Shown piece by piece: positions 21,322-28,342 of a DNA stretch of 64,000 nucleotides (position 1 is its first letter; every line of letters begins with the position of its first letter). The stretch is from Opitutales bacterium (GTDB taxonomy: Bacteria; Verrucomicrobiota; Verrucomicrobiia; Opitutales; UBA953), in assembly GCA_009691685.1 (NCBI GenBank), contig SIAU01000001.1:1-64000 (forward strand). Direction: 5' to 3'. Below the pieces are notes generated by a model, which had not been told where the DNA came from, searched no databases, and saw nothing but the letters and a program-made list of their open reading frames with translations. Both the position numbers and the translations under genes were made by a program.

Positions 21322-23046
21322 TTAGCGCAATTCTTTGCCCGCACCGTCGAATAATTTAAACGTTTCAATGCTGTAAGTAGCGTCAGGCTTAGTGCCCAGA
21401 CGAACCTTACATGACTTCATTAAATCGCGGAAATATTCCCGGTCTTCTTTCACGATGCGATCCAAGTTAATCGGGTGAAGCAGAATATTAATTTCTAATT
21501 CTTTATCCGGACCCACTTGTTCGCGCAAACGACGGATCACGCTTAAAAGCTTACGCTGAATTTCTACCGAGACGGTTCGAGGATTTTTAACGATACCGCG
21601 ACCCTGACAATGCGGACAATCCATGTACATCGAAGTCGTATTCGATTCGGTGTGACGCTGACGTGTCATCTGCAGCACGCCTAATTGGGAAATCGGTAAA
21701 ATCTGGTGCTTGGCTCGATCGTCTTCCATCGCCTCGCGCAAAGTATCGTAAACGGTTTTACGATCTTTGGGGTTTTTCATATCGATCGTATCAATCATGA
21801 TTAAGCCCCCTAAATTGCGGAGCTTGATTTGGCGGGCCCCTTCGGTCACGGCCTCGATATTGGCCTGTAAAATATAGTCTTTACCATCTTTGGTCGTACC
21901 GCGGTGCGAGCCCGTGTTAACGTCAATCGCGGTCAGCGCTTCGGTTTCATCAATCACAATTTCGCCACCGCTGGGCAGTGGAACGCGACGTTGGAAAAGT
22001 TGTTCAATCTGACGTTCGATATTATAGCGTTCGAAAACGGGAATCGGGTCTTTATAAAGTTCGACTCGTGATTTTGAACGAGGAGAAATCTCGGCGACTA
22101 ATTCTTGGACGATTTTAAAGTCCTCGGGATTATCGACCAAAATACGGTCCACTTCTTCGGTGAGAAAATCGCGAACGGTTCGTTCGATTAAACCTGGCTC
22201 AGTGTAGAGTAGAATCGCCTTTTGTTCCGACTTGTTAATCTTCTCAACAATCGATTGCCAGCGGCGCAGTAACATATGGAGATCGCGCACAAACCAACGC
22301 GCTTGCTTACCTTCACCCGCCGTGCGGATGATTACACCCATCCCTTCAGGAATTGTGAGTGAGCGTAAAATATCCTTCAAACGTTCACGCTCGGGAGCTT
22401 CTTCAATTTTTCGGGAAACACCGCAAGCGCCACTGAAGGGCATTAAAACTAAAAATCTTCCAGGCAGGGCGATGTTGGTTGTCGAACGTGGACCCTTGGT
22501 TCCGATGGTGTCTTTAACGACCTGAATGACGATATCAGACCCCGCAGGAAACAGCGTCGGAATGTCTTTCGCTTGGTAGCGCGCTTTACGTTGTTTTTGT
22601 TCAGCCGATTCATTGTCGCGGATGAATTCAACCTGCGAGTCATTCGCGGCGGGTAACATATCCCAGTAATGCAGGAAGGCATTTTTAGACTGACCGATAT
22701 CGACGAAGGCGGCTTTTAATCCGGCTTCGAGATTTTGTACGCGACCTTTAAAGATTGAACCGACCATGCGGTTTTCGCCTTTGTGTTCGATTTCAAATTT
22801 ATCGAGCACGCCGTTCGTGAGTAGGGCGACGCGCTTTTCGAGCGTCTCGGCATTAATGACGAGTTCGTGATAATTAGCACGGTCTTTGGAGAAGTGCTTC
22901 ACGATGCGTTGTAAGAGCGGTAACTCTTTGCGACGCTGCGCGGCTTCTTCAGCGAGTTGCTTAGGATCAACCCCAGAGGAAGTCGGCGGTGTGCTTTCTT
23001 CAGGGAGGTCGTTTAGGTTATCGTCGGAATTATTTGGGTCGGTCAT
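21322..23046 (-). CDS. rng: Ribonuclease E/G family protein, catalytic region only with no long C-terminal scaffold
   Basis: S1 region NRMVGSIFKGRVQNLEAGLKAAFVDIGQSKNAFLHYWD; GGEIVIDETEALTAIDVNTG; GGLIMIDTIDMKNPKDR; CPHCQGRG. Confidence 0.93.
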   Translation of the reverse strand: MTDPNNSDDNLNDLPEESTPPTSSGVDPKQLAEEAAQRRKELPLLQRIVKHFSKDRANYHELVINAETLEKRVALLTNGVLDKFEIEHKGENRMVGSIFKGRVQNLEAGLKAAFVDIGQSKNAFLHYWDMLPAANDSQVEFIRDNESAEQKQRKARYQAKDIPTLFPAGSDIVIQVVKDTIGTKGPRSTTNIALPGRFLVLMPFSGACGVSRKIEEAPERERLKDILRSLTIPEGMGVIIRTAGEGKQARWFVRDLHMLLRRWQSIVEKINKSEQKAILLYTEPGLIERTVRDFLTEEVDRILVDNPEDFKIVQELVAEISPRSKSRVELYKDPIPVFERYNIERQIEQLFQRRVPLPSGGEIVIDETEALTAIDVNTGSHRGTTKDGKDYILQANIEAVTEGARQIKLRNLGGLIMIDTIDMKNPKDRKTVYDTLREAMEDDRAKHQILPISQLGVLQMTRQRHTESNTTSMYMDCPHCQGRGIVKNPRTVSVEIQRKLLSVIRRLREQVGPDKELEINILLHPINLDRIVKEDREYFRDLMKSCKVRLGTKPDATYSIETFKLFDGAGKELR

Positions 23047-24499: not shown

Positions 24500-25936
24500 A
24501 TGGCATTTGCCACCGATCAAAGTACAATTTCCGTAGTCATCTTTTTTGCAGGGATGGTGGTCGCTTACGTTTTCTTGAAAAGGCGAGCGTCCGCCGTGCA
24601 GACCATGTTCGAGCAGCGTTTAAAAAATGAAATCGAGCTAGCGAAACGGGAGGCCTCGCTGGAAACCTCTGAACTACAAGTTAAAGTGGGAGCCTCCCAA
24701 CGGGAGGCCGGTCGACTCCTGGCGCTTGCTCAATCCGAGGCCGAAGCCGTCGACGCCTTAAAAACCGCCAATGAAAAAGAGCGTGAGTTTTTACAAAAAG
24801 AAATATTACGACTCTCGGGCTTAAAAGCCGATGAAGCTAAACGTCTCGCGTTTGAATCATTACAAAAAAAATATGAGGGTGAAGCACGACGCTTGCGTGA
24901 AGAAACCCTCAACCGTCCCGAACAAGAAACCGAAGAAGAAGCTCGGCGGATTTTAATCACGGCGATGCAAAGGTTGACGACGACGACGACGCAAGATGCC
25001 ACCGCTGTTTCCGTTTCTATACCCGGTGAAGATATGAAGGGACGTTTAATTGGTCGTGAGGGTCGCAACATTCGTACCTTCGAACAAAGCACGGGGGCCA
25101 CCCTGCTCGTCGATGAAACTCCGGGCATGGTTTTAATTTCTTGTTTCGATCCCGTCCGTCGCGAAGTCGCTCGTATCGCCCTAGAAAGAATGGTTAAGGA
25201 TGGTCGCATCACCCCCACTTTAATTGAGGATTTTGTCCTGACGGCAGAAAATGAAGTCACGCGACACGCCCAACATCTCGGCCACGAAGCGGTAAGAGAT
25301 TTAGGTCTTCCACCAATGGATGTGAAGGTCGAAGAATTATTGGGCCGACTGCACTTCCGTTTATCCTCCAATCAAAATACTTTAGCTCACTCCGTCGAAG
25401 TCGCCCAAGTCTGCGCCGTACTCGCGGCTGAAATTGGTATCGACCCCGTGCTCGCGAAACGCGCGGGATTATTACACGATTTAGGAAAAGCGATTGATGC
25501 GGATAATGGATTAACTCATGCCGCCGCCGGAGCGAATCTCCTTCGTCGCGTCGGCGAAGACCCACGCGTCGTCAACGCCGTCGCCGCTCACCACCGCGAA
25601 GTAGAAGCGGAAAGTTTATTCGCACCGCTCGTGATGATTGCGGATAGCGTTTCCGGCTCACGCCCGGGCGCTCGTTCATCGACTTTAGAAAGTTACGCTC
25701 AACGCGTGAAGAATCTTGAAGAGTTAGTGCTCACCTTTGAAGGCGTCAAAGAAGCCTACGCCTTTCAATCGGGCCGCGAACTTCGCGTAATCGTCGATCC
25801 CGTGAAAGTGGACGACTTTGCCGCGAGCGAATTACTTCGCCGACTCCGTTCCGCGATTGAGGAAAAACTCTCCTACCAGGGTAACATCAAAATTACCCTG
25901 ATCCGAGAGCAGCGCTTTACCGACGAGGCTCGCTAG
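24500..25936 (+). CDS. rny: Ribonuclease Y
   Basis: N-terminal TM then coiled coil; KH domain GRLIGREGRNIRTFEQSTGATLLVDETPG; HD domain AGLLHDLGKAID. Confidence 0.97.
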   Translation: MAFATDQSTISVVIFFAGMVVAYVFLKRRASAVQTMFEQRLKNEIELAKREASLETSELQVKVGASQREAGRLLALAQSEAEAVDALKTANEKEREFLQKEILRLSGLKADEAKRLAFESLQKKYEGEARRLREETLNRPEQETEEEARRILITAMQRLTTTTTQDATAVSVSIPGEDMKGRLIGREGRNIRTFEQSTGATLLVDETPGMVLISCFDPVRREVARIALERMVKDGRITPTLIEDFVLTAENEVTRHAQHLGHEAVRDLGLPPMDVKVEELLGRLHFRLSSNQNTLAHSVEVAQVCAVLAAEIGIDPVLAKRAGLLHDLGKAIDADNGLTHAAAGANLLRRVGEDPRVVNAVAAHHREVEAESLFAPLVMIADSVSGSRPGARSSTLESYAQRVKNLEELVLTFEGVKEAYAFQSGRELRVIVDPVKVDDFAASELLRRLRSAIEEKLSYQGNIKITLIREQRFTDEAR

Positions 25937-26209: not shown

Positions 26210-26998
26210 ATGAACCCAGAAGAAAATAAAGGTCAGGAAAATACTTCCTCACCGTCCGTTGCCCCCGTGGCAACAAACCCAGCACCACGCATTACCGAAT
26301 CTAAGTTGGAAGTCGCTCACGCGACCCTCCCCCCTATGTCAGTAATCGGTGCTTCCACCGAACCCGCCGTCAAACCCGGAACTATCTCAACACCTAAGCA
26401 ATTTGGTCGTCGTGGTACTCCTTCAAACGTCGCCCCCAGTGGCAAAACCGCAAACTCACGCCCTTCCATCGGCGTGATCGAAAATCCCGCTCAAGTCACC
26501 GAATCACTTTCGGGTGAATTGGCCAAACAGCCTCGTCCAACTCAAGCCGCTCCTGCATCTTACCAAGCTCCTCGCGAGCCTCGCCAAGAACAGCCGCGTC
26601 ATGAGCAGCCGCGTCATGAGCAACAACGTTTTGAACGTGACGCTCGCCCTCCACAATATCGTGCCCCACGTGAACCACAACATGAGCGCCAAGAAAACGC
26701 CTATGCTGCGCCACAAGCTCGTCGTGAACCGCGCCCTGAACGTCAAAAGCTGCACATCGATCCCGTCGTGATTCCTGAACAATCACCGATTGGTTTTTGG
26801 GCTAACTTAAAACGCAAAATTGCTTCTCTTTTCGGTATTTCCGTAAAGTCGACAGCAACGGCATCACTAAATCGAAACCCTCAGCGCAGTCGCGGTCCTC
26901 GTGATTATCGCGACGGTCCTCGCCCTCATGGCGGCCAAGGTGGTCCGCGTCGCGGAAGTCGACCAAACTTCCGTCGACAAGGTCCTCGCCAAGGATAA
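26210..26998 (+). CDS. Intrinsically disordered Pro/Arg/Gln-rich protein with amphipathic segment and RG-rich C-terminus
   Basis: EQPRHEQPRHEQQRFERDARPPQYRAPREP; SPIGFWANLKRKIASLFGISVKS; C-term RNPQRSRGPRDYRDGPRPHGGQGGPRRGSRPNFRRQGPRQG. Confidence 0.75.
   Translation: MNPEENKGQENTSSPSVAPVATNPAPRITESKLEVAHATLPPMSVIGASTEPAVKPGTISTPKQFGRRGTPSNVAPSGKTANSRPSIGVIENPAQVTESLSGELAKQPRPTQAAPASYQAPREPRQEQPRHEQPRHEQQRFERDARPPQYRAPREPQHERQENAYAAPQARREPRPERQKLHIDPVVIPEQSPIGFWANLKRKIASLFGISVKSTATASLNRNPQRSRGPRDYRDGPRPHGGQGGPRRGSRPNFRRQGPRQG
26591..26620 (+). repeat. Two perfect tandem copies of a 15-bp unit encoding QPRHE
   Basis: cagccgcgtcatgag x2, followed by a degenerate copy. Confidence 0.9.
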
Positions 26999-27004
26999 AA
27001 AATT

Positions 27005-27033
27005 AGGGGGTGCAATTTGCACCCCCTTTTTTT
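27005..27033 (+). terminator. Rho-independent terminator after the disordered-protein gene
   Basis: aGGGGGTGCAatTTGCACCCCCttttttt. Confidence 0.92.
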
Positions 27034-27049
27034 ATATAAAAATTAAATC

Positions 27050-28342
27050 ATGCTCGAAGTCGCACGCATTCGTGGAGGCAATCCCATCAAAGGTTCACTG
27101 CGTGCGTCGGGTTCAAAAAATTCCGCTCTCCCTATTTTAGCGGCCGCCCTCCTCACCCACGAAACCGTCACGCTGCACAACGTTCCGAATTTGAGTGACG
27201 TGCGCTTCATGGTTGAAATTTTAAAACACCAAGGAGCAAAAATAGAGAATCCAAAAAAAGGCACTTGGACAATCACGGCGGAAGAAATCACCCATCGCAC
27301 TCCTTATGATTTAGTACGAAAGATGAGAGCTTCGGTCTGTCTACTCGGCGCCTTAGTCGGACGACTCCGCCAAGCCGAGATGGCGCTTCCTGGTGGCTGT
27401 ATCATCGGCATTCGTCCGATTGATTTACACTTAAAAGGTTTAGAAACTTTAAACTGCATCGTCGAAGTAGAAAGCGGCGTGATCAAAGTAAACGCCGAGC
27501 AAGCTCGAGGTGAAAATGTTTTTATGGGCGGTCCGATGGGCAGCACCGTCACTGGCACAGCCAATATCATTATGGCGGCGACACTAACTCCCGGCCTTAC
27601 GAGAATTGAATCTGCGGCCCTCGAACCCGAAATCAGTGACCTTTGTAGTTTACTCAATAAAATGGGCGCGAAAATCAGTGGTCACGGTACACCCTTAATC
27701 ACGATTGAAGGAGTCGAAAAATTACACGGCTGCGAACATACGATTATTTCGGATCGCATTGAAACGGGAACTTATCTCGTCGCGGCAGCGATTACGGGCG
27801 GAGATTTAACGGTGACCCATTGCAACCCTCAACACCTCACCGCGTTTCTCGAAAAACTTAAAGAGGTCGGCGTTAACATCGAAACGAGTGAAGATACGAT
27901 TCGGGCGTTCGGACAACCGACCCAAGCGGTGGAAATTATTACTGAACCTTACCCAGGATTTCCCACCGACCTCCAAGCGCAATTCATGGCCCTGCAATTA
28001 AAAGTACCCGGACGCAGCACCTTTACCGAAAAAATTTATCCGTCACGATTCATGCACGCCGCAGAGTTACAACGGATGGGTGCAGAAATTGCCATCGAAG
28101 GATCCACCGCTGCCGTCTACGGCGATCGCCCACTTTCCGGCGCACCCGTGATGGCCTCCGACTTACGTGCCTCCGCCGCACTGATATTGGCCGCACTCGC
28201 CGCCACGGGCGAAACCTGGGTCCAAAGACTTTATCACTTGGACCGAGGATACGAACAATTCGAAGAAAGACTTCGCAACCTAGGTGCCGACATCGAGCGA
28301 CTGCCCTCCTCCGCCATGCCCAAGGGTTTTGCCGAGGAGTGA
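27050..28342 (+). CDS. murA: UDP-N-acetylglucosamine 1-carboxyvinyltransferase
   Basis: GSLRASGSKNSALPILAAALL; catalytic Cys in LPGGCIIGIRPIDLHLKGLE; GYEQFEERLRNLGADIERL. Confidence 0.97.
   Translation: MLEVARIRGGNPIKGSLRASGSKNSALPILAAALLTHETVTLHNVPNLSDVRFMVEILKHQGAKIENPKKGTWTITAEEITHRTPYDLVRKMRASVCLLGALVGRLRQAEMALPGGCIIGIRPIDLHLKGLETLNCIVEVESGVIKVNAEQARGENVFMGGPMGSTVTGTANIIMAATLTPGLTRIESAALEPEISDLCSLLNKMGAKISGHGTPLITIEGVEKLHGCEHTIISDRIETGTYLVAAAITGGDLTVTHCNPQHLTAFLEKLKEVGVNIETSEDTIRAFGQPTQAVEIITEPYPGFPTDLQAQFMALQLKVPGRSTFTEKIYPSRFMHAAELQRMGAEIAIEGSTAAVYGDRPLSGAPVMASDLRASAALILAALAATGETWVQRLYHLDRGYEQFEERLRNLGADIERLPSSAMPKGFAEE

Follow-up and report, generated by a model that had tools for sequence, protein, structure and literature searches.

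An Arg-rich disordered protein with a single amphipathic helix, encoded beside murA in the order Opitutales

Gene X (26210..26998, + strand, of the window, i.e., the whole 64,000-nucleotide stretch of DNA that was analysed) encodes a 262-aa disordered, Arg-rich protein with one conserved amphipathic helix and basic arms, which is retained order-wide and linked to murA. We propose, with a probability of roughly 0.42, that X is a stand-alone disordered scaffold at the membrane surface that binds polyanions (probably RNA) and has an anatomy like that of the RNase E C-terminal domain (CTD), while not being part of RNase E. The single helix, with its aromatic/aliphatic face and K/R edges, would lie in the cytoplasmic membrane surface, and the long Arg-rich arms would bind polyanions, most likely RNA or ribosomes. 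Short conserved motifs (the N-terminal block and GhhE.P..E.LSG) would probably recruit proteins, so that X may organise condensates or serve as a scaffold on the membrane; most families presumably express it from one transcription unit with murA. We infer membrane binding from sequence and structure prediction and, more tentatively, RNA binding and scaffolding. The membrane part of the model is the better supported one because it draws on helix statistics and a resemblance to FtsA_C, against composition and analogy only for the RNA part.

X has no match above the cut-offs in Pfam, NCBIfam or PDB, and this lack of a homolog of known function counts against the scaffold model. Nor was an account of the family found in the literature searched; judged by these libraries and papers, it appears not to have been described before. 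Sequence searches miss X because almost everything but its architecture changes. X looks like a cell component that nearly the whole order shares and that has gone undescribed; even genomes of about 1 Mb (families f7 and f26) retain it. If X binds membrane and RNA, an RNase E-type degradosome scaffold can exist as a separate protein, and a route opens to studying how RNA is organised in Verrucomicrobia. An action on MurA would make X a new kind of wall-synthesis regulator.

Gene and protein architecture

The open reading frame lies exactly where the original prediction had placed it. It is a real gene, kept by purifying selection, because the substitutions relative to its nearest ortholog (G006, identity about 92-95%) run 7/8/33 over codon positions 1/2/3, with 30 synonymous and 13 non-synonymous codons. 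A suspected 40-aa frame upstream contains stops and was ruled out, a match to X in G053 proved to be spurious (the ORF resembles glycoside hydrolases and has an RGRGG tail) and, apart from one tRNA, no Rfam element was found near the gene.

The protein is rich in proline (14.5%) and arginine (12.2%), with 42 K+R against 24 D+E residues, and its conservation across an alignment of 27 genus orthologs is modular. The N-terminal block (residues 33-71; 26306..26422, +) reads LE..HA.LPP.SVIGA..EP...PGTI..PKQFGRRG.P with many invariant columns, and its first half is retained in all five genera of the family. A second short block (residues 85-105, PSIGVIENPAQVTESLSGELA; 26462..26524, +) takes the form IGV.ENP...E.LSG.LA in the genus and GhhE.P...E.LSG in the family, and a motif of the latter type is recognisable in families f10, f11, f17 and f20. 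Both N-terminal blocks are absent from the original prediction, which had pointed to a low-complexity region and an isolated amphipathic stretch (SPIGFWANLKRKIASLFGISVKS), the latter located at residues 192-214. The R/P/Q/E low-complexity spacer (26534..26743, +) varies in length and shows RREPREPRPEG and REDRP repeats in orthologs. It is followed by an LHIDPVVIPEQ lead-in and the amphipathic helix (residues 181-213; 26750..26848, +), nearly invariant in the genus as VVIP.Q.PIGFWA.LKRK.A.LFGI and with its pattern kept in the family. The chain closes with a basic R/G/P-rich tail (26852..26995, +) that ends in GPREG in most of the 27 orthologs. This tail had been described as RG-rich: it is indeed basic, with 12 R and 9 G in 48 residues, but it contains two RG dipeptides only and no RGG, unlike many orthologs, which carry true RGG tails.

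A survey of 38 representatives from 18 families extends this picture. The segment after the helix is composed of R+K for 20-45% in 36 of them, the chain stops at the helix in two f2 members, and the net charge of the whole protein reaches +48. Long Arg runs (RRRRRRSG, RRRRRRRRSSGGG) occur near the C-terminus of some f20 and f19 members (L205, L244, L246, L267), and they recall the cyanobacterial PNPase-binding motif RRRRRRSSA (PMC11964227).

Checks of disorder and amphipathicity, which the original prediction had suggested, return disorder with one conserved helix. AlphaFold2 (X with 24 relatives; mean pLDDT 52, pTM 0.18) places the sole helix of at least four residues at residues 196-207 (12 residues; 26795-26830, +), with disorder elsewhere; pLDDT is 76-86 in the 10-residue blocks around the helix and mostly <57 in the remainder. 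The same picture is obtained for a remote member of 398 aa from another family, with one helix at residues 306-317. Amphipathicity was scored over 18-residue windows as D = 0.944 muH + 0.33 z, with levels of 0.68 and 1.34. For X, the best 18-mer has D = 1.51, and the amphipathicity of the helix exceeds that of all 300 shuffles of the protein (p<1/300). The helix stands out against shuffles of the same protein (p<=0.02) in 37 of the 38 representatives, and the best window is a single K/R-edged aromatic/aliphatic helix (e.g., GLFGKVKKVFGSLF, SIFARIAQFFGSIF, SFWQKFKAKVLAIF). D is above 0.68 in 30 of the 38 and above 1.34 in 19, while the best window of eight falls under the lipid-binding threshold, which speaks against the scaffold model. 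With a fixed 18-residue threshold, exactly one segment is found in 28 representatives, none in ten and two in none. In two genomes, the best sub-threshold matches of FtsA_C (PF11983), a profile of the membrane-anchor end of FtsA, fall exactly on the X helix (17.1 and 20.7 bits in one, 13 bits in the other); no FtsA_C match exceeds the cut-off of 27.4. X is thus disordered and has one amphipathic helix of the membrane-targeting type, by which it would bind the membrane. A search with the helix block in 14 genomes yielded, beyond X, a single useful match (L205), which turned out to be an X-like protein itself.

The abundance of Arg, Lys and Gly and the disorder would also suit a nucleoid- or ribosome-associated basic protein, in which the helix serves as a protein-binding motif rather than as a membrane anchor. 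Arg/Gly-rich disorder also occurs in DNA-binding and other proteins, which counts against the RNA-scaffold reading. Such a role is quite unlikely, though, as the amphipathic pattern is kept while the helix sequence varies, and therefore lipid binding is expected over a specific protein contact.

Linkage to murA across the order

Orthologs of X are present in 72 of the 79 genomes of the same GTDB family, covering all five genera. Identity to the X of the window drops to 27-40% in the other genera of the family, and the LSG motif and the helix pattern persist. Beyond the family, a gene for an Arg/Lys-rich disordered single-helix protein lies directly upstream of murA, on the same strand, in 18 of the 23 families examined (f1, f2, f4, f5, f7, f8, f10, f11, f12, f13, f14, f17, f19, f20, f21, f22, f24 and f26), with f27 as a possible case; these family counts depend on the genomes sampled, which include several draft MAGs. 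The X of the window, followed by murA at 27050..28342 (+), belongs to this family, defined here as disordered basic single-helix proteins encoded directly upstream of murA. The gap usually measures 2-45 bp; a few families have 97-350 bp. Among the genomes examined, none of f9, f23, f25 and f28 showed an X before murA, nor did one f21 genome, and X is separated from murA in some f17 genomes. In 20 genomes from other orders of the class, no X-type gene was recognised before murA by eye (3 of the 20 stretches were unreadable in this way); a PrmC-like methyltransferase, likewise identified by eye from sequence, often takes this position. A PF08761 (dUTPase_2) gene lies divergently upstream of X in many families (L230, L233, L252 and others).

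Within the GTDB family of the window, homology of X is clear by sequence. Between families it is likely, not proven, resting on weak profile matches, the position before murA, an MP-x-F-E start, a G-[EVIL]-h...E-x-LSG motif (f10, f11, f17, f20) and the helix; gene starts of remote members were picked by eye. Close orthologs also occur in MAG records titled Akkermansia muciniphila and Polynucleobacter meluiroseus (L147, L174), which are probably mis-named bins or contamination. In f14 (L274, L299, L300), X precedes a MurA of a different type, with 36-38% identity to the MurA of the window compared to about 54-63% in most other families, which suggests that murA was replaced in place beside a retained X.

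The gap between X and murA holds a strong hairpin followed by a T-run in the window (27005..27027, +; -21.6 kcal/mol, z -3.6), and a hairpin of the GGGGGCGC/GCGCCCCC type is found in all 27 intact loci of the genus (L001-L030). It may be a terminator, an attenuator or a processing site; in the first two cases it may let X be made in excess of MurA. No significant structure was found in the region directly after rny. Neither this hairpin nor the murA linkage featured in the original prediction.

The main rival to the scaffold reading starts from this linkage. X could be an envelope factor, i.e., an adaptor at the membrane surface that positions MurA (or some other cytoplasmic enzyme of peptidoglycan-precursor synthesis), controls it or couples it to the division or elongation machinery; the arms would then bind anionic lipids or proteins instead of RNA. 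The tight spacing in most families, the persistence of X before the divergent MurA of f14 and the sub-threshold similarity of the helix to FtsA_C all argue for it. Nonetheless, X lies away from murA in g22, g56 and g57, all genera of the GTDB family of the window, and in the f17 genomes mentioned, several families lack an X seen before murA, the hairpin parts the two genes in genus g1, and a simple adaptor would not usually carry a net charge as high as +48. On balance we regard this role as doubtful, if worth serious attention.

Neighbouring RNase genes

RNase Y is encoded directly upstream of X in the window (rny, 24500..25936, +; Pfam HD, KH and RNase_Y_N), on the same strand, as had been predicted. 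Within genus g1, the proposed synteny rny - X - murA holds throughout: rny is present in 27/27 and murA in 28/28 loci with enough flank, and the order does not vary on contigs of sufficient length. The same order is found in g23, and these are the only two genera with rny as the upstream neighbour. X sits elsewhere among unrelated neighbours in g22, g56 and g57, and the neighbours in g22 and g56 share no theme (ATP synthase gamma, S49 peptidase, 5'-3' exonuclease, M16 peptidase, aminotransferase, phosphoribosyltransferase). Synteny with rny is hence not a conserved property of X, and the special link to RNase Y that had been put forward gives way to the deeper one with murA. Since rny adjoins X in one branch only (in G055, for instance, rodA and rny form a pair some 180 kb away from X-murA), gene order points to X-murA as the old linkage, which rny joined later. 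Likewise, the X-rny neighbourhood reads as a local accident because most families checked in the order place an X-type gene directly before murA.

Neither is X restricted to genomes with rny. Eleven X-bearing genomes in six families gave no rny match at E<=1e-30 (f2: G037, G081, G116; f5: G040, G067, G083; f7: G042; f10: G045; f19: G054; f26: G062, G093), among which G040 is a single contig. Because of these genomes, X does not appear to be an accessory of RNase Y or to depend on it.

The RNase E/G gene of the window (21322..23046, -) encodes 574 aa with PF10150 at residues 194-464 and lacks a C-terminal scaffold, in agreement with the original prediction. Its product is extended by about 55 residues N-terminal to the usual start, possibly with an amphipathic stretch (KELPLLQRIVKHFSKDRA) in this part. 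RNase E/G was found in 27 of the 29 order genomes tested, mostly as frames of 559-619 aa that have no long C-terminal scaffold. These observations, the adjacency to rny in two genera and the RNase E CTD-like anatomy favour the idea that X is a degradosome scaffold supplied in trans to RNase Y and/or RNase E/G. This idea is weakened, however, by the genomes without an rny match, by two draft genomes with X and no PF10150 match (G048, G062) and by the mostly short RNase E/G found elsewhere in the class as well, also in orders that showed no X before murA; for the Chlamydiae/Verrucomicrobia group, a survey gives lengths of 510-554 aa (PMC3071783). Given this class-wide shortness, nothing in the genomes suggests that a scaffold was transferred from cis to trans, and we consider this role unlikely. 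The short RNase E/G of relatives that showed no X before murA also tells against our own scaffold model, as does the operon partner being murA and not an RNA gene. There is only a small chance that the broadest version of that model applies, in which an independent protein, anchored in the membrane and binding RNA, is maintained throughout the order as a condensate scaffold, is co-transcribed with the first enzyme of peptidoglycan synthesis, and so organises RNA or translation at the membrane and couples it to wall synthesis.

Comparison with known systems

RNase Y is itself membrane-anchored, and its membrane complex comes to mind through the neighbourhood of rny and X in two genera. Unlike a part of that complex, X persists where rny is undetected, and it has no domain similarity to RNase Y. 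The C-terminal membrane-targeting helix of FtsA (PF11983) is, like the X helix, short and amphipathic, with the HMM similarity seen in two members. X, however, lacks the FtsA fold, and its helix sits within a disordered chain or close to the C-terminal end of one.

The closest likeness is to the C-terminal scaffold of RNase E. In Escherichia coli, an amphipathic MTS tethers the RNase E complex to the membrane, and in Pseudomonas aeruginosa a scaffold with REER repeats and AR motifs binds RNA and assembles into foci; the motifs that bind PNPase, helicase or enolase differ so much from one species to another that sequence does not predict them (PMC11964227). X differs in being a separate gene (a stand-alone 262-aa ORF, without fusion to the RNase E/G catalytic domain or any Pfam match) that is linked to murA rather than to an RNase, and it has no recognised PNPase, RhlB or enolase site. 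The predicted scaffold anatomy itself stands, in a protein of its own: like the RNase E scaffolds of E. coli (MTS/AR1/AR2) and P. aeruginosa (REER/AR1/AR4), X is disordered with one amphipathic helix and Arg-rich arms, carries Arg-rich repeats (RREPRE/RREDRP versus RE[ED]R) and combines short conserved motifs with a repeat length that varies between species, and its composition fits that of the Arg-rich RNA-binding segments of RNase E.
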